Assembly (NCBI GenBank): GCA_963575745.1
Contig: CAUYUJ010014755.1
Span: 294,877-358,876 of the forward strand
Source: Prorocentrum cordatum
Lineage: Eukaryota > Sar > Dinophyceae > Prorocentrales > Prorocentraceae
Length of the DNA stretch: 64,000 nt
Reading direction: 5' to 3'
Shown: in pieces, positions 3,058-41,725 of the stretch
How positions within the stretch are numbered: position 1 is the first letter of the stretch
Layout: each line of letters begins with the position of its first letter
Notes under the pieces: model-generated
The model's database searches: none
Told to the model about the DNA's origin: nothing
The model's input: only the letters and a program-made list of their open reading frames with translations
Made by a program: the position numbers and the translations under genes

Positions 3058-6000
3058 CAATTGGAATCCCACAGATTCCAAAATGGAGCCCAATACGATC
3101 GGAATCCTATTACGCCGATCATCCAATGATCGGGGTAAGCGGATCCGATTATTCCGATCATCCAATGATCGGAGTAATCGGATCCGATTATTCCGATCAT
3201 CCAATGATCGGAGGAATCGGATCCGATTATTCCGATCGTCCAATTGGAATCCCACAGATTCCAAAATGGGGCCCAATACGATCGGAATCCTATTGCGCCG
3301 ATCATCCAATGATCGGAGTAATCGGATCCGATTATTCCGATCATCCAATGATCGGAGTAATCGGATCCGATTATTCCGATCATCCAATGATCGGAGGAAT
3401 CGGGTCCGATTATTCCGATCGTCCAATTGGAATTCCACAGATTCCAAAATGGAGCCCAATACGATCGGAATCCTATTACGCCGATCATCCAATGATCGGA
3501 GTCATCGGATCCGATTATTCCGATCATCCAATGATCGGAGTACTCGGATCCGATTATTCCGATCATCCAATGATCGGAGGAATCGGATCTTATTATTCCG
3601 ATCGTCCAATTGGAATCCCACAGATTCCAAAATGGAGCCCAATACGATCGGAATCCTATTACGCCGATCATCCAATGATCGGAGTAATCGGATCCGATTA
3701 TTCCGATCATCCAATGATCGGAGTAGCCGGACCCGATTATTCCGATCATCCAATGATCGGAGGAATCGGATCCGATTCTTCCGATCGTCCAATTGGAATC
3801 CCACAGATTCCAAAATGGAGCCCAATACGATCGGAATCCTATTACGCCGATCATCCAATGATCGGAGTAATCGGATCCGATTATTCCGATCATCCAATGA
3901 TCGGAGAATCGGATCCGATTATTCCGATCGATGATCGGAGGAATTCCGATCGTCCAATTGGAATCCCACAGATTCCAAAATGGAGCCCAATACGATCGGA
4001 ATCCTATTACGCCGATCATCCAATGATCGGAGTAATCGGATCCGATTATTCCGATCATCCAATGATCGGAGTAATCGGATCCGATTATTCCGATCATCGA
4101 ATGACCGGAGGAATCGGATCCGATTATTCCGATCGTCCAATTGGAATCCCACAGATTCCAAAATGGAGCCCAATACGATCGGAATCCTATTGCGCCGATC
4201 ATCCAATGATCGGAGTAATCGGGTCCGATTATTCCGATCATCCAATGATCGGAGTAACCGGATCCGATTATTCCGATCATCCAATGATCGGAGGAATAGG
4301 ATCAGATTATTCCGATCGTTCAATTGGAATCCCACAGATTCCAAAATGGAGCCCAATACGATCGGAATCCTATTACGCCGATCATCCAATGATCGGAGTA
4401 ATCGGATCCGATTATCCCGATCATCCAATGATCGGAGTAATCGGGTCCGATTATTCCGATCATCCAATGATCGGAGGAATCGGGTCCGATTATTCCGATC
4501 GTCCAATTGGAATCCCACAGATTCCAAAATGGAGCCCAATACGATCGGAATCCTATTACGCCGATCATCCAATGATCGGAGTAATCGGATCCGATTATTC
4601 CGATCATCCAATGATCGGAGTAATCGGATCCGATTATTCCGATCATCGAATGATCGGAGGAATCGGATCCGATTCTTCCGATCGTCCAATTGGAATCCCA
4701 CAGATTCCAAAATGGAGCCCAATACGATCGGAATCCTATTACGCCGATCATCCAATGATCGGAGTAGTCGGATCCGATCACTCCGATCATCCAATGATCG
4801 GAGTAGCCGGATCCGATTGTTCCGATCATCCAATGATCGGAGGAATCGGATCCGATTATTCCGATCGTCCAATTGGAATCCCACAGATTCCAAAATGGAG
4901 CCCAATACGATCGGAATCCTATTGCGCCGATCATCCAATGACCGGAGTAATCGGATCCGATTATTCCGATCATCCAATGATCGGAGTAATCGGATCCGAT
5001 TATTCCGATCATCCAATGATCGGTGGAATCGGATCCGATTCTTCCGATCGTCCAATTGGAATCCCACAGATTCCAAAAGTGAGCCCAATACGATCGGAAT
5101 CCTATTACGCCGATCATCCAATGATCGGAGTAATCGGATCCGATTATTCCGATCATCCAATGATCGGAGTAATCGGATCCGATTATTCCGATCATCCAAT
5201 GATCGGAGGAATCGGATCCGATTTTCCGATCGTCCAATTGGAATCCCACAGATTCCAAAATGGAGCCCAATACGATCGGAATCCTATTACGCCGATCATC
5301 CAATGATCGGAGTAACCGGATCCGATCATTCCGATCATCCAATGATCGGAGTAACCGGATCCGATTATTCCGATCATCCAATGATCGGAGGAATCGGGTC
5401 CGATTATTCCGATCGTCCAATTGGAATCCCACAGATTCCAAAATGGAGCCCAATACGATCGGAATCCTATTACGCCGATCATCCAATGATCGGAGTAATC
5501 GGATCCGATTATTCCGATCATCCAATGATCGGAGTAATCGGATCCGATTATTCCGATCATCCAATGATCGGAGAAATCGGATCCGATTATTCCGATCGTC
5601 CAATTGGAATCCCACAGATTCCAAAATGGAGCCCAATACGATCGGAATCCTATTACGCCGATCATCCAATGATCGGAGTAATCGGATCCGATTATTCCGA
5701 TCGCCCAATTGGAATCCCACAGATTCCAAAATGGAGCCCAATACGATCGGAATCCTATTACGCCGATCATCCAATGATCGGAGTAATCGGATCCGATTAT
5801 TCCGATCATCCAATGATCGGAGTAATCGGATCCGATTATTCCGATCATCCAATGATCGGAGGAATCGGATCCGATTATCCCGAGCGTCCAATTGAAATCC
5901 CACAGATTCCAAAATCGAGCCCAATACGATCGGAATCCTAATGCGCCGATCATCCAATGATCGGAGTAATCGGATCCGATTATTCCGATCATCCACTGAT

Positions 6001-9000
6001 CGGAGTAATCGGATCCGATTATTCCGATCATCCAATGATCGGAGGAATCGGATCCGATTTTTCCGATCGTCCAATTGGAATCCCACAGATTCCAAAATGG
6101 AGCCCAATACGATCGGAATCCTACTACGCCGATCATCCAATGATCGGAGTAATCGGGTCCGATTATTCCTATCATCCAATGATCAAAGTAATCGGATCCG
6201 ATTATTCCGATCATCCAATGATCGGAGGAATCGGATCCGATTATTCCGATCGTCCAATTGGAATCCCACAGATTCCAAAATGGAGCCCAATACGATCGGA
6301 ATCCTATTTCGCCGACCATCCAATGATCGGAGTAATCGGACCCGATTATTCCGACCATCCAATGATCGGAGTAATCGGATCCGATTATTCCGATCAGCCA
6401 ATGATTGGAGGAATCGGATCCGATTATTCCGATCGTCCAAATGGAATCCCACAGATTCCAAAATGGAGCCCAATACGATCGGAATCCTATTACGCCGATC
6501 ATCCAATGATTGGAGTAATTGGATCCGGTTATTCCGATCATCCAATGATNNNNNNNNNNNNNNNNNNNNNNNNNNNNNNNNNNNNNNNNNNNNNNNNNNN
6601 NNNNNNNNNNNNNNNNNNNNNNNNNNNNNNNNNNNNNNNNNNNNNNNNNCTTCCGATCGTCCAATTGGAATCCCACAGATTCCAAAATGGAGCCCAATAC
6701 GATCGGAATCCTATTACGCTGATCATCCAATGATCGGAGTAATCGGATCCGATCATTCCGATCATCCAATGATCGGAGTAATCGGATCCGACTATTCCGA
6801 TCATCCAATGATCGGAGGAAGCGGACCCGATTATTCCGATCGTCCAATTGGAATCCCACAGATTCCAACATGGAGCCCAATACGATCGGAATCCTATTAC
6901 GCCGATCATCCAATGATCGGAGTATTCGGATCCGATTATTCCGATCATCCAATGATCGGAGTAATCGGATCCGATTATTCCGATCATCCAATGATCGGAG
7001 GAACCGGATCCGATTATTCCGATCGTCCAATTGGGAATCCACAGATTCCAAAATGGAGCCCAATACGATCGGAATCCTATTACGCCGATCATCCAATGAT
7101 CGGAGCAATCAGATCTGATTATTCCGATCATCCAATGATCGGAGTAATCGGATCCGATTATTCCGATCATCGGAATCCTATTACGCCGATCGTCCAATGA
7201 TCGGAGTCATCGGATCCGATTAGTCCGATCATCCAATGATCGGAGTAATCGGATCCGATTATTCCGATCATCCAATGATCGGAGGAATCGGGGCCGATTA
7301 TCCCGATCGTCCAATTGGAATCCCACAGATTCCAAAATGGAGCCCAATACGATCGGAATCCTATTGCGCCGATCATCCAATTATCGGATGAATCGGATCC
7401 GATTATTCCGATCATCCAATGATCGGAGTACTCGGATCCGATTATTCCGATCATCCAATGATCGGAGGAACCGGGTCCGATTATCCCGATCGTCCAATTG
7501 GACACCCACAGATTCCAAAATGGAGCCCAATACGATCGGAATCCTATTGCGCCGATCTCAATGATCGGAGTAATCGGATCCGATTATTCCGATCGTCCAA
7601 TTGGAATCCCACAGATTCCAAAATGGAGCCCAATAAGATCGGAATCCTATTACGCCGATCATCCAATGATCGGAGTAAATCGGATCGGGATAAGCCGGGG
7701 AAGAATCCCATGATCGGAGTAATCGGATCCGAATATTCCGATCATCCAATGATCGGAGGAATCGGATCCGATTCTTCCGATCGTCCAATTGGAATCCCAC
7801 AGATTCCCAAATGGAGCCAATACGATCGGAATCCTATTACGCCGATCATCCAATGATCGGAGTAATCGGATCCGATTATTCCGATCCTCCAATGATCGGA
7901 GTAATCGGATCCGATTATTCCGATCATCCAATGATCGGAGGAACCGGGTCCGATTATTCCGATCGTCCAATTGGAATCCCACAGATTCCAAAATGGAGCC
8001 CAATACGATCGGAATCCTATTACGCCGCTCATCCAATGATCGGAGTAATCGGATCCGATTATTCCGATCGTCCACTGATCGGATTCATCGGACCCGATTA
8101 TTCCGATCATCCAATGATCGGAGGAACCGGATCCGATTATTCCGATCGTCCAATTGGAATTCCACAGATTCCAAAATGGAGCCCAATACGATCGGAATCC
8201 TATTGCGCCGATCATCCAATGATCGGAGTAATCGGGTCCGATTATTCCGATCATCCAATGATCGGAGTAATCGGATCCGATTATTCCGATCCTCCAATGA
8301 TCGGAGGAATCGGATCCGATTATTCCGATCGTTTAATTGGAATCCCACCGATTCCAAAATGGAGCCCAATACGATCGGAATCCTATTACGCCGATCATCC
8401 AATGGTCGGAGTAATCGGATCCGATTATTCCGATCATCCAATGATCGGAGTAACCGGACCCGATTATTCCGATCATCCAATGATCGGAGGAATTCGATCC
8501 GATTATTCCGATCGTCCAATTGGAATCCCACAGATTCCAAAATGGAGCCCAATACGATCGGAATCTTATTGCGCCGATCATCCAATGATCGGAGTGATCG
8601 GATCCGATTATTCCGATCATCCAATGATCGGAGTAATCGGATCCGATTATTCCGATCATCCAATGATCGGAGGAATCGGATCCAGAAATTATCCGATTCC
8701 GTCCATTGGAATCCCACAGGTTTGTGTCGCAAAATGGAGCCCAATACGATCGGAATCCTATTAGCGCCGATCAATCCCATGTCGGAGTAATCGGATCCGA
8801 ATTACATATCCGATCATCCAATGATCGGAGTAATCGGATCCGATTATTCCGCTCATCCAATGTTCGGAGGACTCGGATCCGATTATTCCGATCGTCCAAT
8901 TGGAATCCCACAGATTCCAAAATGGAGCCAATACGATCGGAATCCTATTACGCCGATCATCCAATGATCGGAGTAATCGGATCCGATTATTCCGATCATC

Positions 9001-12000
9001 CAATGCTCGGAGTAATCGGATCCGATTATTCCGATCATCCAATGATCGGAGGAATCGGGTTCGATTATTCCGATCGTCCAATTGGAATCCCACAGATTCC
9101 AGAATGGAGCCCAATACGATCGGAATCCTATTGCGCCGATCATCCAATGATCGGAGTAATCGGATCCGATTATTCCGATCATCAAATGATCGGAGTAATC
9201 GGATCCGATTATTCCGATCATCCAGTGATCGGAGGAATCGGATCCGATTATTCCGATCGTCCAATTGGAATCCCACAGATTCCAAACTGGAGCCCAATAC
9301 GATCGGAATCTTATTACGCCGATCATCCCATGGTCGGAGTAATCGGATCCGATTATTCCGATCATCCAATGATCGGAGTAATCGGATCCGATTATTCCGA
9401 TCATCCAATGTTCGGAGGAATCGGATCCGATTACTCCGATCGTCCAATTGGAATCCCACCGATTCCAAAATGGAGCCAATACGATCGGAATCCTATTACG
9501 CCGATCATCCAATGATCGGAGTAATCGGATCCGATTATTCCGATCATCCAATGATCGGAGTAATCGGATCCGATTTTTCCGATCATCCAATGATCGGAGG
9601 AATCCCCCCCCTCCCCCCCTGGATCCGATTATTCCGATCGTCCAATTGGAATCCCACAGATTCCAAAATGGAGCCCAATACGATCGGAATCCTATTACGC
9701 CGTTGATCCAATGATCGGAGTAATCGGATCCGATTATTCCGACCATCCAATGATCGGAGTAATCGGATCCGATTATTCCGATCATCAAATGATCGGAGGA
9801 ATTGGATCCGATTATTCCGATCGCCAATTGGAATCCACAGATTCCAAAATGGACCCAATACGATCGGAATCTATTGCGCGATCATCCAATGATCGGAGTA
9901 TCGGATCCGATTTATTCCCGATCGTCCAATGATCGGATAATCGGATCCGATTACTTCGATCATCCAAGGGCGATGATCGGAGGAATCGGGGTCGATTATT
10001 CCGATCGTCCAATTGGAATCCCACAGATTCCAAAATGGAGCCCAATACGATCGGAATCCTATTGCGCCGATCATCCAATGATCGGAGTAATCGGATCCGA
10101 TTATTCCGATCATCCAATGATCGGAGTAATCGGATCCGATTATTCCGATCATCCAATGATCGGAGGAATCGGATCCGATTTTTCCGATCGTCCACTTGGA
10201 ATCCCACAGATTCCAAAATGGAGCCCAATACGATCGGAATCCTATTACGCCGATCATCCAATGATCGGAGTAATCGGATCCGATTATTCCGATCATCCAA
10301 TGATCGGAGTAACCGGATCCGATTATTCCGATCATCCAATGATCGGAGGAATCGGATCCGATTATTCCGATCGTCCAATTGGAATCCCACAGATTCCAAA
10401 ATGGAGCCCAAAATGATCGGAATCTTATTACGCCGCTCATCCAATGTTCGGAGTAATCGGATCCGATTATTCCGATCGTCCAATGATCGGAGTAATCGGA
10501 TCCGATTATTCCGATCATCCAATGATCGGATGAATCGGATCCGATTATTCCGATCGCCCAAATGGAATCCCACAGATTCCAAAATGGAGCCCAATACGAT
10601 CGGAATCCTATTGCGCCGATCATCCAATGATCGGAGTAATCGGGTCCGATTATCCCGATCATCAAATGATCGGAGTAATCGGATCCGATTATTCCGATCA
10701 TCCAATGATCGGAGGAATCGGATCCGATTATTCCGATCGTCCAATTGGAATCCCACAGATTCCAAAATGGAGCCCAATACGATCGGAATCCTATTACGCC
10801 GATCATCCAATTATCGGAGTAATCGGATCCGATTATTCCGATCATCCAATGATCGGAGTAATCGGATCCGATTATTCCGATCATCCAATGATCGGAGGAA
10901 TCGGATCCGATTTTTCCGATCGTCCAATTGGAATCCCACATATTCCAAAATGGAGCCCAATACGATCGGAATCCTATTACGCCGCTCATCCAATGATCGG
11001 AGTAATCGGATCCGATTATTCCGATCATCCAATGATCGGAGTAACCGGATCCGATTATTCCGATCATCCAATGATCGGAGGAATCGGATCCGATTTTTCC
11101 GATCGTCCACTTGGAATCCCACAGATTCCAAAATGGAGCCCAATACGATCGGAATCCTAGTACGCCGATCATCCAATGATCGGAGTAATCGGGTCCGATT
11201 TTTCCGACCATCCAATGGCCGGAGTAATCGGATCCGATTATTCCGATCATCCAATGATCGGAGGAATCGGATCCGATTATTCCGATCGTCCAAATGGAAT
11301 CCCACAGATTCCAAAATGGAGCCCAATACGATCGGAATCCTATTGCGCCGATCATCCAATGATCGGGGTAATCGGATCCGATTATACCGATCATACAATC
11401 GGAATCCAATACACTCGGAACCCAATACAACCGGAACCCAATACAATCGGAATCCATTATAATCGGAATCCAATACAATCGGAATCCATTATAATCGGAA
11501 TCCAATACAATCGGAATCTTATTACTCCGATCATCCAATGATCGGAGTAATCGGATCCGATTATTCCGATCATCCAATACAATCGGATTCGTGGTATTCC
11601 GATCATTTGATGATCGGAGTATTCGCATTTGATTATTCCGATCATCCAATGATCGGAGGAATCGGATCCGATTATTCCGATCGTCCAATTGGAATCCCAC
11701 AGATTCCAAAATGGAGCCCAATACGATCGGAATCCTATTGCGCCGATCATCCAATGATCGGAGGAATCGGATCCGATTATTCCCATCGTCCAAATGGAAT
11801 CCCACAGATTCCAAAATGGAGCCCAATACGATCGGAATCCTATTACGCCGATCATCCAATGATCGGAGTAATCGGATCCTATTACGCCGATCATCCAATG
11901 ATCGGAGTAATCGGATCCGATTATTCCGATCACCCAATGATCGGAGGAATCGGATCCGATTATTCCGATCGTCCAATTGGAATCCCACAGATTCCAAAAT

Positions 12001-12452
12001 GGAGCCCAATACGATCGGAATCCTATTACGCCGATCATCCAATGATCGGAGTAATCGGATCCGATTATTCCGATCATCCAATGATCGGAGTAATCGGATC
12101 CGATTATTCCGATCATCCAATGATCGGAGGAATCGGATCCGATTATTCCGATCGTCCAATGGAATCCCACAGATTCCAAAATGGAGCCCAATACGATCGG
12201 AATCCTATTACGCCGATCATCCAATGATCGGAGTAATCGGATCCGAGTATTCCGATCATCCAATGATCGGAGTAATCGGATCCGATTATTCCGATCATCC
12301 AATACAATCGGAAATTGTAGTATTCCGATCGTTGGATGATCGGAGTAATCGCATCTGATTATTCCGATCATCCAATGATCGGAATAATCGGATCCGATCA
12401 CTCCGATCATCCAATGATCGGAGTAATCGCATCCGAGTATTCCGATCATAGG
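3058..12452. repeat. Hyper-palindromic satellite, 183-bp higher-order unit
   Basis: Each higher-order unit is three 39-bp monomers plus a 66-bp spacer containing CCACAGATTCCAAAATGGAG. CAATTGG starts at 3058, 3241, 3424 and 3607, giving exact 183-bp steps. Within a monomer, 36 of 39 bases form a near-perfect palindrome centred on GGATCC with core TAATCGGATCCGATTA. Roughly 45-50 units are present. Because 39 and 183 are multiples of three and stops are rare, several frames on both strands are open for hundreds of codons (for example MIGVIGSDYSDHP per monomer). Local breaks occur at 7680-7712, 8680-8800, 9604-9619 (a C-run), 9825-9985 and 11390-11520 (short GGAATCCAATACAATC units). No gene is supported here. 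Confidence 0.95.
6550..6649. other. Assembly gap, 100 Ns
   Basis: Exactly 100 N inside the satellite. A round 100 usually marks a scaffold join of unknown length, so the true array length is not known. Confidence 0.95.
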
Positions 12453-12470
12453 GGCGCCAGCGAGCGTCGC
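12442..12470 (-). repeat. Right arm of inverted repeat bounding the satellite
   Basis: 12453-12470 (GGCGCCAGCGAGCGTCGC) pairs perfectly with 1397-1414. The inner nine bases also pair after a two-base mismatch. Immediately outside begins a GTT microsatellite. Confidence 0.85.
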
Positions 12471-12473
12471 CAG

Positions 12474-12474
12474 T

Positions 12475-12510
<36 letters not shown>
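12474..12510. repeat. (GTT)n microsatellite
   Basis: About twelve GTT triplets just outside the right inverted-repeat arm. It mirrors the GTT/GGT tract outside the left arm. Confidence 0.9.
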
Positions 12511-12884
12511 GTCTTCTCTCGTGCCGCCAAGCTTTCTCCTATCCTTGGTTCCTGGACTCATCCCCCGTTTGTCTGGAAATCCACTATGAGCTTCGCGTCT
12601 TGGAATGCTCGGCCCTTGTTCGGAGGGCCTACCTCTACTCTGGATACCGCCCAAAACAGGATGTCACGCTTACTTTCCTACATCCAGAAGTGTCAGGTGG
12701 CTTACATGCTGGATTTGATACGTTCAGAACCCCCACGCTTTCTGGAGTTCGGTCCCGCCGGGGACCCTGGAAGTGTACGTGGTTTTGTGGTGTACACAAG
12801 CACTTAAGTGCACCAGAGCTGTGGCGCACGAGTATGGTGCTGAAGCAGCAACCGTGGTGCACGTAGGCGTCGTCGTGTACACAG

Positions 12885-22375: not shown

Positions 22376-22867
22376 GGAATTTTTTGAGGATGCCTGCGAA
22401 ACGACTGCCGATGGAGGTCGGGCCGGAGGGGCAGTTTTCAGAAGTTCCGCCAAAATATGAAGAACAAATGTTTTCAATGCATCTGGCCATTTTCACCACC
22501 GAGAAGTCCCTGGCAGGTGCCAGTGTGGAAGTCCAAACGGGCAGGGGGCAGTGGCAGCTTTCTTGCGGTTGACGATCTAACGTCTTGGGCCCATCCCGCC
22601 ATTGCGCCTGGCTGCGTTCCTGGATCCCCTGGGGGAGGGGGATCGTGGGGGGGTTATTTTTCTCCGCGGCTTGTTCGGTCCGGAAGTGCGCCTTCGTTTT
22701 CTGAGGATGTTTTTAGCGAATCGCAATTCTTAACAGAAGAGTAGCGAACTTGTTGGGCCGCGTCGTCTCCTTTTTTGTCGCCTCTCCCGAGCCAAACGGG
22801 GGTTTCTTGGGCGGTCGTGGGAGGTGTGGGCCGTTTGGAGCTTTTGCGAGCGATGCGGCGACAATGT
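22376..22867 (+). repeat. Degenerate 3' spacer of the ferredoxin unit with inserted motif copies
   Basis: 22476-22670 corresponds to the post-gene spacer of the intact units (GACGATCTAACG, CCCATCCCGCCATTGCGCCTGG). Motif copies of the 17.2-18.4 kb family interrupt it at about 22384 and 22701. Confidence 0.7.
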
Positions 22868-23649
22868 TTAGATCACGCACGCACGCACGTTAAGGGATTT
22901 AACAGGTTTGAGCCTCTTGGCGGGACCTCCAAGGCGGCCCGTTAGATTCCAGGTTGGCCCCGAGGGGGCTCTAGCGGGCGCGGTCCAAGATAACCAAACT
23001 GGCATCAAGATCGCCCGAGTCACTCCAAGGAGGGCGGTGTGGGAGGTTGGGAGGTGCACCATTCCCACCCGAGTTCCTCGAGGGGGCTCCTTGGGGCTTC
23101 TCGGGGGGCTCCTTGGGAGGCTGCCTCGGAGGCTCCGTGGCCACTTGGAGCCGTCTTGGAGCGGTCTTGGGGCCTCTTGGAGGCATACTAGTGGCCGTGT
23201 CGAGCCATCCTGGAGTATCTCGAACACTCGTGTAGGCCATCGGGGGCTCTCTGCGACCAGATTGCGCTCATGTTGGGCCAAAAGCCTCCCAATTGTGCCC
23301 CCGAGATGCCAGAAAGTCTTTGACAACCATGTGTATCTCAATGATGTTGGCTTTGAGAGAAGGGGGGTCCTAATTACGGCTGCCCCTCTTGCGCCCAAAC
23401 ATTGAGCGTTCCCCGATAAGCTTTGGGAAGCGAGTTCGGTCCTCTCTTGGGTGGGGCCATCCTTGGGAGGTTTTTTTCCCTTCGACTCAAACCACCTGGG
23501 TCGATTCACTTCGAGCTGCCGAGCTTGGAGAACCCCATTTGGCCGGCGAAGAGCTTCGAATGGAAGACCGTCTCCTAGGACCACCCCTGGACGACCACCC
23601 CAGGACTCCCCCTCACACACGCCGACAGGATCGCCAGATACAGTATTTG

Positions 23650-24118
23650 CTTGGGCAAGCCTCGCGCTCAAGGCGCGCGTAGTCCAAGCTTGCGTGGATA
23701 GCTGCGGAGTGGCATGGCGGTCCGCGCAGGTCTTTGTCCGATCATAGATACTCATCGCCTCCCCTCTGCTCCCTCCCTCCTGCCGTCCGTCATGCTGCAC
23801 CTCCTCACCCTCCCAATCGCTCGTCGTTGGTGGCTCGGGCGGAAGGCCGAGAGGAGGGAGAGGGAAGGGGTCGGAAGGAATCAAATGTGGGGCTCTTGCC
23901 CTCAGGGGTGGACCACGACCGGACGCAGCCCGAAAGCTTGGTCAGGATGGCGCCGAGGAGGTACCCCATGTACCGATTGTGAGCGAGTTCGAGGCAAGCG
24001 GGATGTGTACCCGCGCACGCTTGAGGGATGATGGGCGGCGTCGCGCAATCCTTCTGGCTCCAGCCCTCTCGGCCATATCTTCGCCCCAGCTGCTCTCCTG
24101 GCGCCCACCAAGGGGACC
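23650..24118 (+). promoter_or_regulatory. Conserved upstream region of ferredoxin copy 1
   Basis: This segment is kept before all intact genes and, diverged, before both pseudogene-type units (21500-21983, 29565-29830, 31040-31170), so it is the best candidate for the promoter and 5' leader. A pyrimidine-rich stretch ends in AG at 24088-24089, 30 nt before the ATG, and is a plausible trans-splice acceptor. An alternative AG is at 24062-24063. I see no TATA box. No binding site can be named. Confidence 0.45.
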
Positions 24119-24637
24119 ATGGCCCTCCGCTCCAGCGTGCTCCCGACGGCCGTCGTGGCTGCCGTGTGCCTCCTGGCGCTGCGCGGCCTGCTCGCCCCGG
24201 GCCCGAGCCAGGCCTTCGCTGCGCCAGAGGTCGGCCTCACGCAGTCCGTCCACCGCCAGTGCAGGCCCGTGGCGGGCGGCGACCGCGCCCTCGCCTCCGG
24301 CGCAGCCCCGGCCGTCCTGAGCACCGTCCCGGCGCGCCCAGGCGTCGCCGCGCACTTCAAGGTGACGCTGGAGACGCCGGACGGCACCCAGGAGTTCGAG
24401 TGCCCCGAGGACGTGTACATCCTGGACCAGGCCGAGGAGGAGGGCCTCGAGCTGCCCTACTCCTGCCGCGCGGGCTCGTGCTCGAGCTGCGCGGGCAAGG
24501 TGCTGTCTGGCGAGATCGACCAGTCGGACCAGGCCTTCCTGGACGAGGACCAGACGGGGGAGGGCTTCTGCCTCACGTGCGTGACGTACGCGACCTCGGA
24601 CGTGACCATCAAGACCCACTGCGAGGACGAGCTGTAA
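24119..24637 (+). CDS. petF: Plastid [2Fe-2S] ferredoxin, copy 1
   Basis: A 172-residue precursor of plant-type ferredoxin, which takes electrons from photosystem I and passes them to ferredoxin-NADP reductase and other plastid enzymes. Residues 1-30 are a hydrophobic secretory-type leader ([17 protein letters not shown]). It is followed by AFAAP at 32-36, resembling the FVAP motif of peridinin-plastid transit peptides, and a transit region to about 77. The mature domain starts near [11 protein letters not shown] (79). The cluster ligands are C116, C121, C124 and C154 ([15 protein letters not shown], then CLTC), the canonical Cx4Cx2C plus 30 spacing. The acidic C-terminus is typical. The gene is intronless. 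The ATG is chosen because the leader is conserved in all copies and upstream sequence has stops. Two neighbouring copies follow on the same strand at 2.4-kb steps. Confidence 0.97.
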
Positions 24638-26057
24638 GATGCCGAGGACGCGGTCGGAGCACAGCAGGGGCAGTGGTGCCGATTTGCTTCTCGATTTCCG
24701 TCGATTCAGTATTGCAATGGCCTCAATGCCAGTTCCGCCACCGACCCTGGAAAGTGATCAGTTGGTGCGCAGGTGACGGAATGTGGACGGGCGCAGGGGG
24801 GCAGTTGGCAGTGGCGGCTTTTCATGCGAGGTTGACGATCTAACGGTCTTGGGCCCATCCCGCCATTGCGCCTGGCTGATGTCCTGGAGGCCTCGGGGAC
24901 AGGTGGGGGGATCGTGGGGGGGTTATTGGGGAGATCCGCGGGGCCTTTGCGGCCCACGTAAGTGCGGCTTGGGCTTTTTTTTTGGAAGGGATTGCTTCCA
25001 GCGGTGCGACAGTAGCGAACTTGTTGGGCCGCTCGTTGACCTTCTTTGTCGCCTCTTGGCCCCATCTTGGGGGCTTCTTGGGCTGGTCGTGGGAGGTCCT
25101 GGGCCGTCGTGGACGCTTTTGCGACTGATGCGGCGACAATGTTTAGATCACGCACGCACGCACGTTAAGGGATTTAACAGGTTTGAGCCTCTTGGCGGGA
25201 CCTCCAAGGCGGCCCGTTAGATTCCAGGTTGGCCCCGAGGGGGCTCTAGCGGGCGCGGTCCAAGATAACCAAACTGGCATCAAGATCGCCCGAGTCACTC
25301 CAAGGAGGGCGGTGTGGGAGGTTGGGAGGTGCACCATTCCCACCCGAGTTCCTCGAGGGGGCTCCTTGGGGGCTTCTCGGGGGGCTCCTTGGGAGGCTGC
25401 CTCGGAGGCTCCGTGGCCACTTGGAGCCGTCTTGGAGCGGTCTTGGGGCCTCTTGGAGGCATACTAGTGGCCGTGTCGAGCCATCCTGGAGTATCTCGAA
25501 CACTCGTGTAGGCCATCGGGGGCTCTCTGCGACCAGATTGCGCTCATGTTGGGCCAAAAGCCTCCCAATTGTGCCCCCGAGATGCCAGAAAGTCTTTGAC
25601 AACCATGTGTATCTCAATGATGTTGGCTTCGACAGAAGGGGGGTCCTAATTACGGCTGCCCCTCTTGCGCCCAAACATTCTTCTACTGGGGGGAGCGTTC
25701 ATGGGGCGTTCTTGAGCGATATTGGGGCCTTCTTTGACCATCTCGGAGCCACCTTGAGGCCCTAAGACCTAATAGCACATCGGAAGCGAGAAGGCATTCC
25801 CCATTGAGTCCCCGTAAGTTTGGGAAGGAGTTCGGCCTCTTGGGTGGGGCCATCCTTGGGAGGCTTTTTTCCCTTCGACTCAAACCACCTGGGTCGATTC
25901 ACTTCGAGCTGCCGAGCTTGGAGAACCCCACTTGGCCGGCGAAGAGCTTCGAATGGAAGACCGTCTCCTAGGACCACCCCTGGACGACCACCCCAGGACT
26001 CCCCCTCACACACGCCGACAGGATCGCCAGATACAGTATTTGCTTGGGCAAGCCTCG
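24638..26057 (+). repeat. Spacer between ferredoxin copies 1 and 2
   Basis: 3' flank (GATGCCGAGGACGCGGTCGG), a T9 run near 24976, the CACGCACGCACG marker at 25147, a GGGGGCTCCTTGGGGG run, then the AATTCACTTCGAGCTGCC-like upstream segment from about 25890. Overlapping ORFs on both strands recur identically in each unit but show no protein-like conservation, and I do not call them. Confidence 0.85.
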
Positions 26058-26524
26058 CGCTCAAGGACGCGCGTAGTCCAAGCTTGCGTGGATAGCTGCG
26101 GAGTGGCATGGCGGTCCGCGCAGGTCTTTGTCCGATCATAGATACTCATCGCCTCCCCTCTGCTCCCTCCCTCCTGCCTGCCGTCCGTCATGCTGCACCT
26201 CCTCACCCTCCCAATCGCTCGTCGTTGGTGGCTCGGGCGGAAGGCCGAGAGGAGGGAGAGGGAAGGGGTCGGAAGGAATCAAATGTGGGGCTCTTGCCCT
26301 GAGGGGTGGAGGGGTGGACCACGACCGGACGCAGCCCGAAAGCTTGGTCAGGATGGCGCCGAGGAGGTACCCCATGTACCGATTGTGAGCGAGTTCGAGG
26401 CAAGCGGGATGTGTACCCGCGCACGCTTGAGGGATGATGGGCGGCGTCGCGCAATCCTTCTGGCTCCAGCCCTCTCGGCCATATCTTCGCCCCAGCTGCT
26501 CTCCTGGCGCCCACCAAGGGGACC
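26058..26524 (+). promoter_or_regulatory. Conserved upstream region of ferredoxin copy 2
   Basis: Nearly identical to the region before copy 1, with an extra GGGGTGG near 26305. The candidate trans-splice acceptor AG is at 26494-26495, 30 nt before the ATG, after a pyrimidine-rich stretch. Confidence 0.45.
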
Positions 26525-27043
26525 ATGGCCCTCCGCTCCAGCGTGCTCCCGACGGCCGTCGTGGCTGCCGTGTGCCTCCTGGCGCTGCGCGGCCTGCTCG
26601 CCCCGGGCCCGAGCCAGGCCTTCTCTGCGCCAGAGGTCGGCCTCACGCAGTCCGTCCACCGCCAGTGCAGGCCCGTGGCGGGCGGCGACCGCGCCCTCGC
26701 CTCCGGCGCAGCCCCGGCCGTCCTGAGCACCGTCCCGGCGCGCCCAGGCGTCGCCGCGCACTTCAAGGTGACGCTGGAGACGCCGGACGGCACCCAGGAG
26801 TTCGAGTGCCCCGAGGACGTGTACATCCTGGACCAGGCCGAGGAGGAGGGCCTCGAGCTGCCCTACTCCTGCCGCGCGGGCTCGTGCTCGAGCTGCGCGG
26901 GCAAGGTGCTGTCTGGCGAGATCGACCAGTCGGACCAGGCCTTCCTGGACGAGGACCAGACGGGGGAGGGCTTCTGCCTCACGTGCGTGACGTACGCGAC
27001 CTCGGACGTGACCATCAAGACCCACTGCGAGGACGAGCTGTAA
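26525..27043 (+). CDS. petF: Plastid [2Fe-2S] ferredoxin, copy 2
   Basis: 172 residues, identical to copy 1 except serine for alanine at residue 34, giving AFSAP just after the leader hydrophobic segment. All four cluster ligands (C116, C121, C124, C154) are intact, and the mature domain is unchanged. The single difference falls in the motif expected to mark leader cleavage, where the three residue types seen in this window are A, S and V (V in the pseudogene). Near-identity of gene and spacer with copy 3 suggests recent duplication or gene conversion. Expected product and location are as for copy 1. Confidence 0.97.
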
Positions 27044-28464
27044 GATGCCGAGGACGCGGTCGGAGCACAGCAGGGGCAGTGGTGCCGATTTGCTTCTCGA
27101 TTTCCGTCGATTCAGTATTGCAATGGCCTCAATGCCAGTTCCGCCACCGACCCTGGAAAGTGATCAGTTGGTGCGCAGGTGACGGAATGTGGACGGGCGC
27201 AGGGGGGCAGTTGGCAGTGGCGGCTTTTCATGCGAGGTTGACGATCTAACGGTCTTGGGCCCATCCCGCCATTGCGCCTGGCTGATGTCCTGGAGGCCTC
27301 GGGGACAGGTGGGGGGATCGTGGGGGGGTTATTGGGGAGATCCGCGGGGCCTTTGCGGCCCACGTAAGTGCGGCTTGGGCTTTTTTTTTGGAAGGGATTG
27401 CTTCCAGCGGTGCGACAGTAGCGAACTTGTTGGGCCGCTCGTTGACCTTCTTTGTCGCCTCTTGGCCCCATCTTGGGGGCTTCTTGGGCTGGTCGTGGGA
27501 GGTCCTGGGCCGTCGTGGACGCTTTTGCGACTGATGCGGCGACAATGTTTAGATCACGCACGCACGCACGTTAAGGGATTTAACAGGTTTGAGCCTCTTG
27601 GCGGGACCTCCAAGGCGGCCCGTTAGATTCCAGGTTGGCCCCGAGGGGGCTCTAGCGGGCGCGGTCCAAGATAACCAAACTGGCATCAAGATCGCCCGAG
27701 TCACTCCAAGGAGGGCGGTGTGGGAGGTTGGGAGGTGCACCATTCCCACCCGAGTTCCTCGAGGGGGCTCCTTGGGGGCTTCTCGGGGGGCTCCTTGGGA
27801 GGCTGCCTCGGAGGCTCCGTGGCCACTTGGAGCCGTCTTGGAGCGGTCTTGGGGCCTCTTGGAGGCATACTAGTGGCCGTGTCGAGCCATCCTGGAGTAT
27901 CTCGAACACTCGTGTAGGCCATCGGGGGCTCTCTGCGACCAGATTGCGCTCATGTTGGGCCAAAAGCCTCCCAATTGTGCCCCCGAGATGCCAGAAAGTC
28001 TTTGACAACCATGTGTATCTCAATGATGTTGGCTTTGAGAGAAGGGGGGTCCTAATTACGGCTGCCCCTCTTGCGCCCAAACATTCTTCTATTGGGGGGA
28101 GCGTTCATGGGGCGTTCTTGAGCGATATTGGGGCCTTCTTTGGCCATCTCGGAGCCACCTTGAGGCCCTAAGACCTAATAGCACATCGGAAGCGAGAAGG
28201 CATTCCCCATTGAGTCCCCGTAAGTTTGGGAAGGAGTTCGGCCTCTTGGGTGGGGCCATCCTTGGGAGGCTTTTTTCCCTTCGACTCAAACCACCTGGGT
28301 CGATTCACTTCGAGCTGCCGAGCTTGGAGAACCCCATTTGGCCGGCGAAGAGCTTCGAATGGAAGACCGTCTCCTAGGACCACCCCTGGACGACCACCCC
28401 AGGACTCCCCCTCACACACGCCGACAGGATCGCCAGATACAGTATTTGCTTGGGCAAGCCTCGC
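27044..28464 (+). repeat. Spacer between ferredoxin copies 2 and 3
   Basis: Same order of elements as the previous spacer, with only a few substitutions (for example CTTTGAGAG for CTTCGACAG near 28036 and TTTGGCC for TTTGACC near 28139). No additional gene is supported. Confidence 0.85.
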
Positions 28465-28931
28465 GCTCAAGGACGCGCGTAGTCCAAGCTTGCGTGGATA
28501 GCTGCGGAGTGGCATGGCGGTCCGCGCAGGTCTTTGTCCGATCATAGATACTCATCGCCTCCCCTCTGCTCCCTCCCTCCTGCCTGCCGTCCGTCATGCT
28601 GCACCTCCTCACCCTCCCAATCGCTCGTCGTTGGTGGCTCGGGCGGAAGGCCGAGAGGAGGGAGAGGGAAGGGGTCGGAAGGAATCAAATGTGGGGCTCT
28701 TGCCCTGAGGGGTGGACGGGGTGGACCACGACCGGACGCAGCCCGAAAGCTTGGTCAGGATGGCGCCGAGGAGGTACCCCATGTACCGATTGTGAGCGAG
28801 TTCGAGGCAAGCGGGATGTGTACCCGCGCACGCTTGAGGGATGATGGGCGGCGTCGCGCAATCCTTCTGGCTCCAGCCCTCTCGGCCATATCTTCGGCCC
28901 AGCTGCTCTCCTGGCGCCCACCAAGGGGACC
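28465..28931 (+). promoter_or_regulatory. Conserved upstream region of ferredoxin copy 3
   Basis: As for copies 1 and 2, with one extra base in a G-rich run near 28715 and TTCGGCCCAG in place of TTCGCCCCAG. The candidate acceptor AG is at 28901-28902. Confidence 0.45.
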
Positions 28932-29450
28932 ATGGCCCTCCGCTCCAGCGTGCTCCCGACGGCCGTCGTGGCTGCCGTGTGCCTCCTGGCGCTGCGCGGC
29001 CTGCTCGCCCCGGGCCCGAGCCAGGCCTTCGCTGCGCCAGAGGTCGGCCTCACGCAGTCCGTCCACCGCCAGTGCAGGCCCGTGGCGGGCGGCGACCGCG
29101 CCCTCGCCTCCGGCGCAGCCCCGGCCGTCCTGAGCACCGTCCCGGCGCGCCCAGGCGTCGCCGCGCACTTCAAGGTGACGCTGGAGACGCCGGACGGCAC
29201 CCAGGAGTTCGAGTGCCCCGAGGACGTGTACATCCTGGACCAGGCCGAGGAGGAGGGCCTCGAGCTGCCCTACTCCTGCCGCGCGGGCTCGTGCTCGAGC
29301 TGCGCGGGCAAGGTGCTGTCTGGCGAGATCGACCAGTCGGACCAGGCCTTCCTGGACGAGGACCAGACGGGGGAGGGCTTCTGCCTCACGTGCGTGACGT
29401 ACGCGACCTCGGACGTGACCATCAAGACCCACTGCGAGGACGAGCTGTAA
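28932..29450 (+). CDS. petF: Plastid [2Fe-2S] ferredoxin, copy 3
   Basis: 172 residues, the same protein as copy 1 including AFAAP at 32-36. The iron-sulfur ligands and acidic C-terminus are intact. This is the last full member of the array. Its 3' flank agrees with the others for about 35 bases after the stop, then carries a duplicated GGCAGT and becomes different (GCTCATCTGCCTCC...). Copy 3 may therefore use a different 3' end from copies 1 and 2. Otherwise the annotation of copy 1 applies. Confidence 0.97.
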
Positions 29451-37160: not shown

Positions 37161-38227
37161 GGGGGGGGGCTTGGGCCGATAAAAAACATGTTCCAGACTG
37201 GGGCTCATTCGCTCCCTCCTCATGGTCATCATTCCCATTTTATTACGTTGGACAAACTTAGGCTGTTTAGCTGGAGCGTTCGTGCGTGAAGAGAAGCAAC
37301 ATTGGCCGACCCGACCTAGGACAAGCGAACAACATTTCCGCGTCGGACAGCAGCAGATACAGTAATGCAGAGAAAAGTGAAAATCATGTGTCCCAGCAGG
37401 GCATCTATAGTAACCTATCCCGCGGCAGTGCAAAGTAGGGAGGAGGGCACAACTATACAACATACAACACAATCATGAGGAATACAGTGGGGACGCGCAT
37501 CACGAAACCATATGCAGTCGGGGTACTGTGGGTTTCTTCGCTCCGCGCGCTGCGCGGTGACTTCACGCGGCCGTCGAAGAATATGCTACGTTCAGGGTGC
37601 CTTGGGCTTCTCCCCAGTCGCACCTCTCTCGCGGGTCTTCAGGACTGGGTTTCCTGCGGGGTTCTTTTGGGGCCGCGTCCGCACTGTACACCCTTCCCCC
37701 CCCCCCCCCTCCTTTCCAGCCTGCTCCTCCATCTTCCTCCCCCTGCTCTCCTGGCCCCACCCCTGCAGGACACTGCTGCCGCCCTCCAGCGGCGGCGTCG
37801 ACACGAAGGAGAGTTTCCTGCTTCCTCCTAGATATCGCTCCCGAGCCTGGGCGGGGGGTGGACGGCTCTGCTACAGTCGCCAGCCCAGCCCGACGCCGGC
37901 TCCTGCACCTCCCACGTCCCTCCCTCTCGCCCTCTTCTCCCTCGGCCCCGTCACCCTCCCCAGACCCCCTCGAATCACGAAAAAGTCACGGCGGCGGGAT
38001 TTCGCTGTTTTCGATATCCGTGAGCCTTTACCAGGCCTCGGGACCGGCAAAAAACGATTCAGATTGAGAATCGGGTCCCGGGGATTGGGTCGAGACCTCT
38101 GGGGCTCAAGGTTATGAAAAAAACATGACGTCGGGGGTATGGGTCTCGAGAGTGCAAAAGCCACATATCCATACCTAAACGACCACCCTTCGGGTGATAA
38201 GGAGGTTCGGGGGGGGGAGGAACCAAC
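37161..38227. other. No gene seen
   Basis: Poly-C stretch near 37700 and mixed sequence. ORFs up to 200 codons lack motifs and repeat partners. Confidence 0.5.
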
Positions 38228-38410
38228 GTCTCACTCGATCGGTCTCACTATCGATCTCACTATCGATCTCACTATCGGTCTCGCTCGATCGATCTCACTC
38301 GATCTATCTCACAATCGATCTCACTCGATCTATTTCATTCGATCGATATGACTATCGATCTCGCAATCGATCTCACTATCGGTATCACCATCGGTATCAC
38401 AATCGATCTC
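38228..38410. repeat. TCTCACTATCGA 12-bp tandem repeat
   Basis: About fourteen degenerate copies of TCTCACTATCGA/TCTCACTCGATC. Confidence 0.9.
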
Positions 38411-38439
38411 ACATTCAACGTCATCATCAACATCATCAT

Positions 38440-38457
38440 CGTCATCAACGTCATCAA
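38440..38457 (+). repeat. Left target-site duplication of retrogene
   Basis: CGTCATCAACGTCATCAA is identical to 40621-40638. It abuts the spliced-leader relic. Surrounding sequence is CAT/CAA-rich, as is the sequence after the right copy, consistent with insertion into a microsatellite. Confidence 0.7.
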
Positions 38458-38479
38458 TCCGTAGCCATTTGGGCTCAAG
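38458..38479 (+). other. Spliced-leader (DinoSL) relic of the retrogene
   Basis: All 22 bases match the dinoflagellate spliced leader (with T at its variable first base) except one T to G in the central T-run. It ends in GGGCTCAAG and is directly preceded by the 18-bp duplication. It lies 229 nt upstream of the ATG at 38709. This placement is expected at the 5' end of a reverse-transcribed, trans-spliced mRNA. Confidence 0.85.
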
Positions 38480-38612
38480 AGCCAGCCGCGGCCCGCGCGT
38501 CCGTGCCCCATGGTGTCTGCTGGCCGTGCCCCTCGGCGCACGGCGTCTGTGTCCCAGTGGGCGTGATGTACGTGCTCCTCGGTGCTACGTGATTGATGCC
38601 GACTTCCGTTAC

Positions 38613-38630
38613 CCCCCTGGCGCCAGGGGG
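38613..38630. other. Perfect 18-bp palindrome in the retrogene leader
   Basis: CCCCCTGGCGCCAGGGGG reads the same on both strands. It lies in the 5' leader inferred between the SL relic and the ATG. It could fold in RNA or bind a dimeric factor; no function is known. Confidence 0.5.
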
Positions 38631-38708
38631 TGCTAAGGCTGCTGATCGGAGAGCGGTTATTTTTCTCTTGGTGCTCTGCGATGCCTTGGGAAAACTGCTA
38701 AGGTTGGT

Positions 38709-40652
38709 ATGCATAATTCAGTACACTTCGCCCAGGCTGCACTCAGTCTTGTTGCTCTTGGACATGAATTGGACCACGGTCTGGTCGCGCCTTCGATTGA
38801 CTTCCCCATGCAACGTCGTATGCACGACATCGCGCAGTCTTCGAGTTTGCAGCGCTCTCTGGAGCTTGCGCATGGTATCCCTCATTGTAGGTCGCTGCAC
38901 GGTATGCTGGACATGGCGCAGGAGCGTGGTGTTTTCTCTCACGCGGCTTGGGCTCGGATGGGCATGATGCGGATGCGAGGTAGCAGTGCGCGGCATCGGC
39001 GCTGGAAGATTCCCCCTAGCACAGCTGTGGTGATTCGGATTTTTGACCATATTGATCCTGCCGATGTTGTTGGTGGAAAGTTGAATCCTCATGCTGCCGA
39101 GTTTGTGCCGGCTGCTCCAGTTCCTTTTCGTCTCCCTCCCCGTGCAGGTGATGCGGCGGACATACTCCTTAGAGAATTGTGCGGTGGACCGCTGGAGGCT
39201 GGGGTGGTGGGTGACGATGGTTCTGAGGAAGATGAGGATTCGGACCGCCCGCGTGATGACCCACAGGAGGATATCATCGATTCGATGCACTATGAATTTG
39301 GAGACGAACCCTACGAAGCCACCAGCGACCCCGCGAACGACGCAATCGACATGGTGCACTACGATTGCGGCGATGAGCCTTTTGAGACGGACGATGGTTG
39401 GGACGCGCTTGAAGGCACATTGCTACCATCTGATGCCGACTACGACGCGGTGCTTTTTGGCGGCTCTGATCGGGAAGATGGAGGCCCCGAGGTCCCGAGG
39501 CAAGATGGAGAGGCTGATGGGGGACTTCGAAAACCCATTCGCGATAGTGTTCCTGGTGCTGTTTTGCGTTCTGGGTGGGAAGACAGCGATCCTGCTCTTG
39601 CAGGAAGAACGGCGATTATGGATTATATTATTCGCGCCTCCTTTTCTGACACTGTCTATGTTGGCGCGGGCGGTCCAGATGAGACACATCTCTTTGCTGA
39701 TTTCGTCACTGGCACGGCTGAGGCTCTTCTCAACGATGCAGTTGCTCCTGGGAGTGGGAGTGGGGAAGATGGAGGCCCCGAGGTTCTGAGGCATTCCGCT
39801 GAAGCCGATGAGGGACTTCGAAAATCCATTCGCGCCGATGCTCAAGATGATATTGGTGCTCTCTCTGACGACGTTGTGGCCCCTCTGTGTCAGTATGGGG
39901 AAAGTGGAGGCCCCGAGGTCCTGAGGCACGGAGCCGCCGATGATGGACTTCGAAAACCCATTCGTGGTGCTGTTCCTGGCGGTCCTCGGTATAGTGCATA
40001 TGCAATATCTGATTCTGCACTCGTCGGGGAGTACATGTCGGATATGACCTCCTTGGTTGCTCTTGTTACTGGCTTGGTCGAGTCCGCGTCTGCCGATACT
40101 GCGGTCTCTGTGGGCTTGACATGCGAAGATGGGGGCCCCGAAGTCTGCGTGGCACCAATCCGCGCCCCTCTCTCTGACGACGCTGTGGCTCCGCTGTGTC
40201 AGCACGGGGAAGATGGAGGCCCCGAGGTCCTGAGGCACGGAGCCGCCGATGATGGACTTCGAAAACCCATGTGTGCGAGTGCGTCTGCTCCAGACCCTCT
40301 TCGTGTGGACAGTGACTCCGAGACTGCGATTGCGGATGACGACGACATTGCTGAATTCGTGCGTTCTTGGATTGCTGCGCGGGACCCGAGCTGCCTCTCG
40401 CTCCGACTCGCCCTGCAGGCAGCTACTCGCTGGTTCGGCCCACTCGGCCGTGCCTGCAAAGATCGGATTCGCACTGTGGCTCTCGACGTCATGGTTGAGA
40501 TGCTCCCAGTGGACTCGCCGAGCCCAGCGGCGGAGCCAGGCCCTGCGAAGAGGCGGCGCGGAGCGGCGGGGGCCCGCCCCAAAGGCTGGAGGGGAACAAA
40601 AAACAAAAAAACAAAAAAAACGTCATCAACGTCATCAACATCATCATCATAA
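38709..40652 (+). CDS. Retroposed intronless gene, repeat-containing acidic protein, unrecognised
   Basis: A 647-residue ORF; the first ATG follows an in-frame TGA at 38643. I do not recognise a family. Residues 1-110 are helical-looking and histidine/methionine-rich (GHELDHGLVAPSIDFPMQRR). The middle is strongly acidic. It holds a pair (SMHYEFGDEPYE near 200, MVHYDCGDEPFE near 222) and a repeated module, DGGPEVLRHGAADDGLRKPI, with full or partial copies near residues 256, 354, 398, 474 and 501, often preceded by LSDDAVAPLCQ. Residues 560-610 look like a folded helical segment (LSLRLALQAATRWFGPLGRA). A basic tail (614-637, KRRRGAAGARPKGWRG) suggests nuclear or nucleic-acid contact. The last ten residues, TSSTSSTSSS, are read from the 3' target duplication and microsatellite, so the stop codon is not original. 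SL relic, A-tract and target duplication mark it as a retrocopy; the open frame suggests youth or selection. Confidence 0.7.
   Translation: MHNSVHFAQAALSLVALGHELDHGLVAPSIDFPMQRRMHDIAQSSSLQRSLELAHGIPHCRSLHGMLDMAQERGVFSHAAWARMGMMRMRGSSARHRRWKIPPSTAVVIRIFDHIDPADVVGGKLNPHAAEFVPAAPVPFRLPPRAGDAADILLRELCGGPLEAGVVGDDGSEEDEDSDRPRDDPQEDIIDSMHYEFGDEPYEATSDPANDAIDMVHYDCGDEPFETDDGWDALEGTLLPSDADYDAVLFGGSDREDGGPEVPRQDGEADGGLRKPIRDSVPGAVLRSGWEDSDPALAGRTAIMDYIIRASFSDTVYVGAGGPDETHLFADFVTGTAEALLNDAVAPGSGSGEDGGPEVLRHSAEADEGLRKSIRADAQDDIGALSDDVVAPLCQYGESGGPEVLRHGAADDGLRKPIRGAVPGGPRYSAYAISDSALVGEYMSDMTSLVALVTGLVESASADTAVSVGLTCEDGGPEVCVAPIRAPLSDDAVAPLCQHGEDGGPEVLRHGAADDGLRKPMCASASAPDPLRVDSDSETAIADDDDIAEFVRSWIAARDPSCLSLRLALQAATRWFGPLGRACKDRIRTVALDVMVEMLPVDSPSPAAEPGPAKRRRGAAGARPKGWRGTKNKKTKKTSSTSSTSSS
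40598..40620 (+). other. A-rich tract, probable poly(A) remnant
   Basis: Runs of six, seven and eight A separated by single C. It lies directly before the right copy of the 18-bp duplication, where a poly(A) tail should be. The ORF reads through it as lysines. The C interruptions leave open that part of it was already in the parent mRNA. Confidence 0.6.
40621..40638 (+). repeat. Right target-site duplication of retrogene
   Basis: CGTCATCAACGTCATCAA, identical to 38440-38457, immediately after the A-rich tract. The two copies are 2.2 kb apart. Confidence 0.7.
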
Positions 40653-41470
40653 CCTCATCCCCATCATCATCACCATCATCATCATCATCAGCGGGACACC
40701 ATCATCGTCACCATCATCATCATCATCATCACACACATCATCATCATCACCATCATCATCTTCATCTTCATCATCAGCATCGGGAAACCATCATCACCAC
40801 CAGCATCACCGTTACACCAACATCAGCATCATCAGCATCACCATCATCATCTCACCATCTTGAACAACATCAACAATATCATCATCACCGGGACACCACC
40901 ATCATCAGCATTATCATCATCAACATCATCATCATCGGGACACCACCATCATCAACATCAGCATCATCACCATCTTCGGGCCACCATCATCAAAATCAAT
41001 CATCACCTCATCGTCATCATCATCATCGGGACGCCACCATCATCATCATCATCAACATAATCATCATCATTGGGACACCAGCTTCATCATCACCATCATC
41101 ATCAACAGCATCATCTTCATCAACCTCATCATTGTCAGCATCATCATCATCGGGACACCATCATCATTCTATCATTGTCCCATCTTCAGCATCATCATGA
41201 TCATCAACACCATCATCATCATCATCATCAACATCGGGACACCATCATCATCATCAGCAACATCATCATCAACATCGTCATCATCCTGACACCATCATCA
41301 TTATCACCACCATCACCAGGATCATCAGCAACATCGTCAGTATCATCATCATCTTTATCACCGTCGGGACACCATCATCATCACCACTATCAGCATCATC
41401 AACATCATCGACATCATCATCACCACCACCATCATCATCATCATCATCGTCATCATCATCATCACCGGGA
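40639..41470 (+). repeat. (CAT)n microsatellite with CGGGACACC interruptions
   Basis: About 830 bases of CAT triplets with CAC, CAG and CAA variants, punctuated by CGGGACACCA about every 60-100 bases. It continues the repeat interrupted at 38457. Confidence 0.95.
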
Positions 41471-41725
41471 CACCGACGGGACACCCGCGGGACACCGGCG
41501 GGACACCGCGCGCCACCGGCCCGGGGAGATGAAACATTTGGTCCGGCCACGCCTGAGCCGGAGGCGAGTCATCGGCGGGACACCGCGCGCCACTGGCCCC
41601 CGGAGAGGAAACATTTGGTCCAGCCGCGCCTCAGCCGGAGGCGGGACGCCGGCGGGACACCGAGCGCCACCGGTCCCCGGAGAGGAAACATTTGGTCCGG
41701 CCGCGCCTCAGCCGGAGGAGACTTT
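41471..41725 (+). repeat. 77-bp minisatellite, three copies
   Basis: GAAACATTTGGTCCGGCC recurs at about 41531, 41607 and 41684, each followed by GCCTGAGCCGGAGGCG or close variants and GGCGGGACACCG. It grows out of the GGGACACC interruptions of the preceding microsatellite. Confidence 0.9.

Follow-up and report, generated by a model that had tools for sequence, protein, structure and literature searches.

Retrogenes tagged with the dinoflagellate spliced leader (SL) go back to Slamovits and Keeling 2008, as cited in PMC6050394 and PMC12014239, and the growth of dinoflagellate genomes is thought to be due in part to mRNAs returning to DNA (PMC11453091). In the accessible text of this literature, the enzyme for mRNA recycling is named only as retrotransposons, LINEs among them, and no target site is given. 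The available portions of PMC6050394 and PMC12014239 on DinoSL retrogenes describe neither target duplications nor an array preference. Nor was an array preference described in the accessible parts of the wider literature on dinoflagellate SLs, retrogenes, microsatellites and non-LTR insertion, a search from which subscription papers mostly fell outside.

SINEs encode no protein and are transcribed from an RNA polymerase III promoter, the site of the L1 endonuclease is A/T-rich, and Dong is one of the non-LTR retrotransposons that target microsatellites. Others of this kind, according to the available text of PMC4640811, are some HERO families and Togen, which is found at (TG)n.

Here, we analysed a 64-kb stretch of Prorocentrum cordatum DNA (the window), in which a complete, still-open retroposed gene had been predicted. 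The sequence is very probably a processed retrocopy of an SL mRNA, dead on arrival, placed by LINE-type insertion that favours trinucleotide arrays and derived from a source under purifying selection. Rather than a complete lone gene, it is a broken member of a recurrently inserted superfamily.

Insertion site and spliced leader of the window copy

The predicted 18-bp duplication is real: CGTCATCAACGTCATCAA occurs exactly twice in the 64-kb window, once on each side of the insert (38440-38457 and 40621-40638, + strand). The 18-mer is absent from 78 of the 79 loci examined, and the remaining locus (L001) is the same place as the window copy. In an anchored test, none of 247 shifted 5' positions gave an equally good match; a looser test against triplet-shuffled flanks was weak (p = 0.05), which may be what is to be expected inside a microsatellite. 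A chance duplication at this site was rejected on the basis of the two exact occurrences and the anchored test. The 5' copy of the duplication lies in an imperfect CAT array, and the CAT microsatellite continues on the far side (40639-41464, + strand; Tandem Repeats Finder gives the array as 40623-41464).

At 38458-38479 (+ strand) lies a 22-nt dinoflagellate SL with one mismatch, as originally proposed, and the shuffle control suggested at that time yielded no match at up to three mismatches in 100 shuffles of the window. The junction of this SL with AGCC is common to siblings of two subfamilies, A (the window's own) and B. The A-rich tract was likewise found as described, with C interruptions, at 40595-40620 (+ strand), where the retrocopy ends on its 3' side. 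That an SL-bearing mRNA was retroposed into a CAT microsatellite is well supported, with sibling insertions now in agreement. A trans-spliced nuclear mRNA would have been reverse-transcribed and inserted by LINE-type target-primed reverse transcription, leaving the 18-bp duplication, and the copy would have been decaying ever since.

The window contains several other repeated features. A further SL relic (124-144, two mismatches) stands behind a CTC array; its downstream sequence is unlike the superfamily leader, and no second copy of its 5' flank was found within the window. Long arrays of IGSDYSDHPMIG-like units occupy 1497-12530 on both strands, with a short N stretch inside, and 22840-29017 holds three tandem units of ~2.4 kb, with 98-100% identity across the blocks reported.

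Reading frame and encoded protein

The open frame begins with an ATG at 38709, crosses the A tract and the 3' copy of the duplication, and ends inside the host repeat with a TAA at 40650-40652 (38709-40652, + strand), a total of 647 codons. The 637 codons counted originally are indeed open, but codon 637 is merely the end of the A tract, ahead of which there is no in-frame stop. An alignment of eight copies (the window and the siblings L031-L036 and L038, with L031 and L034 having common flanks) places the family 5' untranslated leader at 38480-38595 and the family start codon at 38596 (+ strand), inside what had been taken for a 229-nt leader. In the window alone, one base is missing between 38658 and 38659. 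A reading from the family ATG changes frame after codon 21 and meets a stop after 123 codons; the private deletion therefore severs the family frame start (38596-38708, + strand) and makes the ATG at 38709 an internal Met of the family frame. This frame also holds an 18-nt perfect palindrome (38613-38630; a self-match on the opposite strand) and in-frame repeats around EDGGPEVLRHGAADDGLRKPIR (39469-40270, + strand; self-BLAST). The alignment bears out an intronless frame, as neither the window copy nor its near siblings show an intron.

The encoded protein had been called unrecognised, which is nearly so. A single-sequence search (7997 candidates scored) yielded no homologue, no solved structure matched the window protein, and Pfam found no reverse transcriptase, endonuclease or mobile-element domain in five proteins (window, L031, L047, L048 and L039). 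The one recognisable element is a PAM2-like motif, KLNPHAAEFVP (39078-39110, + strand), a possible docking site for poly(A)-binding protein, which scores 16.7 bits with Pfam PF07145 (14.5 bits in L031), below the cut-off of 20 in both cases. The pattern arose in 3 of 20000 codon shuffles. Its core can be followed in divergent copies (LNPHAAECVP in L041, LSLDAAEFVP in L043, LNPNAAEFVL in L045) and in the L040 fusion described below (FNPSAAIFRP); it is absent in subfamily B. AlphaFold modelling of residues 1-145 with no alignment gave a mean pLDDT of 51.8. At the RNA level, the 3' tail was no stabler than shuffles (z = 1.16), and Rfam gave no match in 38000-41500.

An alignment-based search recovered a single protein (P0001; 94% identity over 140 residues), which belongs to a EukProt set under the label Pyramimonas. 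We take it for a contaminant transcript of the same or a near species, and the match suggests that the superfamily is transcribed. Together with the length of the open frame, the fact that this near-identical transcript-set protein begins with MHNSVHF, as the window frame does, could be read to mean that the window copy is expressed and makes a 637-residue protein. However, P0001 itself departs from the family frame after ~140 residues, and the window copy has no stop of its own, a broken family start and private changes (24 nonsynonymous, 9 synonymous) that look neutral, as under no selection. These results led us to reject a complete functional gene and make an expressed retrogene very unlikely. 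The description as a complete, still-open gene is therefore not supported, as the copy shows neither its own start and stop nor coding constraint after insertion.

The accessible part of PMC10235124 reports the sequence of a dinoflagellate RNA virus that has an SL at its 5' end, as well as SLs near endogenised viral genes, so that an SL-bearing viral RNA, endogenised in the same manner, could in principle give a similar locus. We regard this as highly improbable, as the window protein has no match in phages or viral contigs, and no viral Pfam family, polymerase or capsid was found in the window protein and its scanned relatives.

Sibling copies and their insertion sites

When the assembly that contains the window (21,875 contigs, 4.128 billion bases) was searched with the protein, 82 matching pieces were obtained among the best 69 of 1190 candidates scored. 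Three were 90-92% identical over nearly the full length, and the most distant of the SL-bearing siblings shared 32-37% identity with the window protein in the region aligned. Sibling DNA was examined in 20, then 8, then 14 stretches around matches, together with 7 short 3' pieces; the counts below cover only the matches in these stretches, and the other matches, C-terminal pieces among them, fall outside the counts. The genome search for an intron-containing parent, proposed with the original prediction, recognised none among these 82 pieces from the best 69 of 1190 candidates. L044 was considered for this role and rejected by eye, as its 1.27-kb gap has no clear splice acceptor and the locus has no SL and a frame break; we interpret L044 as an old copy that has been interrupted.

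A genomic SL with 0-4 mismatches is present at the 5' end in 36 of 38 testable separate insertions, the window included; at up to four differences, the SL did not occur in any of 300 900-mers produced by plain letter shuffling. This count drops the flank duplicates L034 and L054 and leaves aside L037 and L042 (N runs) and L039 (contig edge), whose 5' ends are untestable. The two exceptions are L040, with only a degenerate SL, and L044, with none (best match at 8 mismatches). In L043, the junction lies by eye 6 nt further in, as an alternative trans-splice site would give. A single SL is carried by 33 of the 36, and subfamily A has no tandem SL. The other three are L061, with an SL and then two 15-nt relics, L065, with an SL and one decayed relic, and L060, with two whole SLs. 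Tandem SLs are a known signature of a retrocopy that has been transcribed, trans-spliced and retroposed again (available text of PMC12014239 and PMC7245778), and these units therefore indicate repeated rounds of retroposition. It is thus in L060, L061 and L065, and not within subfamily A, that copies are seen to have given rise to copies.

Subfamily A copies start at an identical base and mostly end in a common 3' zone. By eye, the A tract is clear in L031/L034, L033, L035, L036, L037, L039, L040, L042, L047 and L048, short in L045, L046 and L049, and absent in L032, L038, L041 and L043; the sequences of L044 and L050 stop before the 3' end. The tract is probably a poly(A) tail and not an A-rich coding stretch primed internally. 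By eye, the window, L042, L046, L048 and L049 all have a G run with AAC or TGAAC after it, immediately upstream of the A tract or what remains of it; this may represent a common recognition or priming site.

The other copies are broken, each differently; among seven rows read over 2010 bases (L038 excluded), only L031 is stop-free. Along the conserved frame, 15 insertions were followed to the 3' end; in 12 of them the element contains no stop (window, L031, L033, L035, L036, L037, L046, L047, L048, L051, L057/L077 and L061/L078), while a stop is found in L045 (by eye), L052/L073 and L060/L075. Outside these 15, L032 is truncated into its array, and the frames of L041, L042 and L043 were not confidently traceable. 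The absent stops are not accounted for by the retrocopy reading and are counted against it; stop codons made by polyadenylation were sought at the 3' ends by eye, and no consistent frame emerged.

Duplications measure 18 bp in the window, 17 in L035, 19 in L036 and 15 in L048. Inside arrays such duplications, taken alone, are weak evidence, with the looser test giving p < 0.05 in only 4 of 15 rows (window 0.05; L034 repeats L031). The insertions are nevertheless shown to be real by duplications in unique DNA, outside arrays, of 19 bp (L057/L077), 16 bp (L060/L075) and 14 bp (L052/L073). No duplication was found for L033, L038, L041, L043, L045 and L076; L032 is ambiguous inside its array, and L074 is mostly N. 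The occurrence of every hallmark at one insertion had been considered unusual. Within the family it is not, as SL, A tract and duplication recur together in L031, L035, L036, L047, L048, L051 and L057/L077.

Insertions are strongly biased towards trinucleotide arrays. Judged by the longest perfect trinucleotide run (12 bases or more) in the 60 bases upstream, 25 of the 36 insertions lay at arrays (CTC 19, CAT 4, GAG 1, ATG 1), compared with 1241 of 20000 60-mers drawn from the same loci, and 23 of the 25 were oriented one way and 2 in reverse (p = 2e-5). With its imperfect CAT array, the window does not qualify under this rule, which also labels L051 and L038 as CTC although CAT is nearer the junction. 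A second, junction-near rule, based on the covered share of the last 40 bases, placed 24 of 36 at arrays (CTC 16, CAT 6 including the window, GAG 1, ATG 1) against a background of 1305 in 20000, with 22 oriented one way and 2 in reverse. The backgrounds contain the copies' own flanks and are, if anything, high. The remaining 11 or 12 of the 36 insertions lie away from arrays.

Duplication of a single locus at the DNA level, with repeats and SL as coincidence, would produce copies with shared flanks, and two such pairs, L031/L034 and L053/L054, are duplicates or alleles. The remaining 5' flanks compared differ, and the same copy start lies inside these differing flanks, several of them with duplications, which leaves this explanation a practically negligible probability.

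L039 and L040 are 96% alike over 2.2 kb (L039 1-2202; L040 reverse complement 1716-3919) and join the 5' part of another PAM2-like gene to the 3' part of the window superfamily. The fusion may have been inserted as one unit in L040, in which a 15-base flanking match was seen by eye, albeit in a repetitive array and with the automatic match elsewhere. The 5' flank of L050 contains, just upstream of the SL, sequence that by eye resembles the 3' end of a different subfamily B copy, so that one CTC array apparently received both.

Source, fate and relation to known systems

Six copies, with L034 set aside as a duplicate of L031, carry 131 nonsynonymous and 55 synonymous private substitutions. The nonsynonymous share expected under neutrality ranges from 67%, if only transitions are considered, to 75%, if all changes are, and the counts do not differ from neutrality under two expectations (p = 0.31 or 0.15). 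Between recent copies and L041, L043 and L045, dN/dS is 0.45-0.62, and in recent pairs it is 0.46-1.03. The source thus looks constrained and the copies do not, although L042, with values of 1.10 against L038 and 1.05 against L043 (282-287 codons), fits a constrained source poorly. A tree of 12 rows is comb-like, with long end branches in subfamily A, the pattern expected if a source gene kept producing dead copies. In this reading, mRNAs from a single gene superfamily would have been retroposed many times in the manner of the window copy, and in some lineages copies would have been transcribed, given a new SL and retroposed anew. The machinery, presumably a LINE enzyme, favours trinucleotide arrays whose sense strand is the pyrimidine-rich or the CAT one.

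An extension compatible with this processed-retrocopy reading would make the superfamily itself a mobile element, to which the host adds a new SL in each cycle and whose protein would help its own mRNA to capture the LINE machinery, perhaps by binding poly(A)-binding protein through the PAM2-like motif. The five scanned proteins lack a reverse transcriptase or mobile-element domain, subfamily B has no PAM2 motif, and with a single SL in 33 of 36 insertions subfamily A is equally explained by an ordinary source gene, so that we consider this extension possible but unlikely. It draws on the SL at 36 of 38 testable insertions, though these were found by protein similarity, compared with 22-25% of Symbiodinium genes being retrogenes (as cited in the accessible part of PMC12014239), on the tandem SL units as copies of copies, on the PAM2-like core partly kept in divergent copies and the L039/L040 fusion, and on the deep dN/dS below 1. 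A class of SL-headed retroposons is therefore put forward only tentatively; in it, trans-splicing would rebuild the 5' end in each cycle, a putative product docking poly(A)-binding protein would favour its own poly(A) mRNA, and an array-seeking LINE would insert it. If true, this would be a mobile element with a 5' end supplied afresh by the host spliced leader RNA and not carried by the element.

Under the processed-retrocopy reading, the dozens of insertions, their duplications and the strong array preference offer a handle on how dinoflagellate algae recycle RNA into DNA and make it testable which LINE uses CTC/CAT arrays and whether all SL relics land there. They also call for caution where an SL relic precedes an open frame, which is not necessarily a gene.

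Among known systems, SINE-type retroposons are similarly multi-copy and presumably reliant on another element's enzyme, but the window superfamily copies have a protein frame and an SL. HERO, Togen and Dong also insert into simple repeats; unlike the five scanned superfamily proteins, they carry a reverse transcriptase. The L1-type processed pseudogenes of mammals share the 3' poly(A) and target-site duplications (available text of PMC3747384), as well as a dead-on-arrival fate (available text of PMC12014239), whereas the target here is a trinucleotide array and the 5' end is the SL. DinoSL-tagged retrogenes, as far as the accessible sources describe them, are likewise intronless, with a genomic SL relic and tandem SL and CCATTTTGGCTCAAG relics after repeated rounds. 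What sets the present case apart from them is one protein superfamily of unknown kind, with the SL at 36 of 38 testable insertions, visible duplications and A tracts, and a preference for arrays in one orientation.
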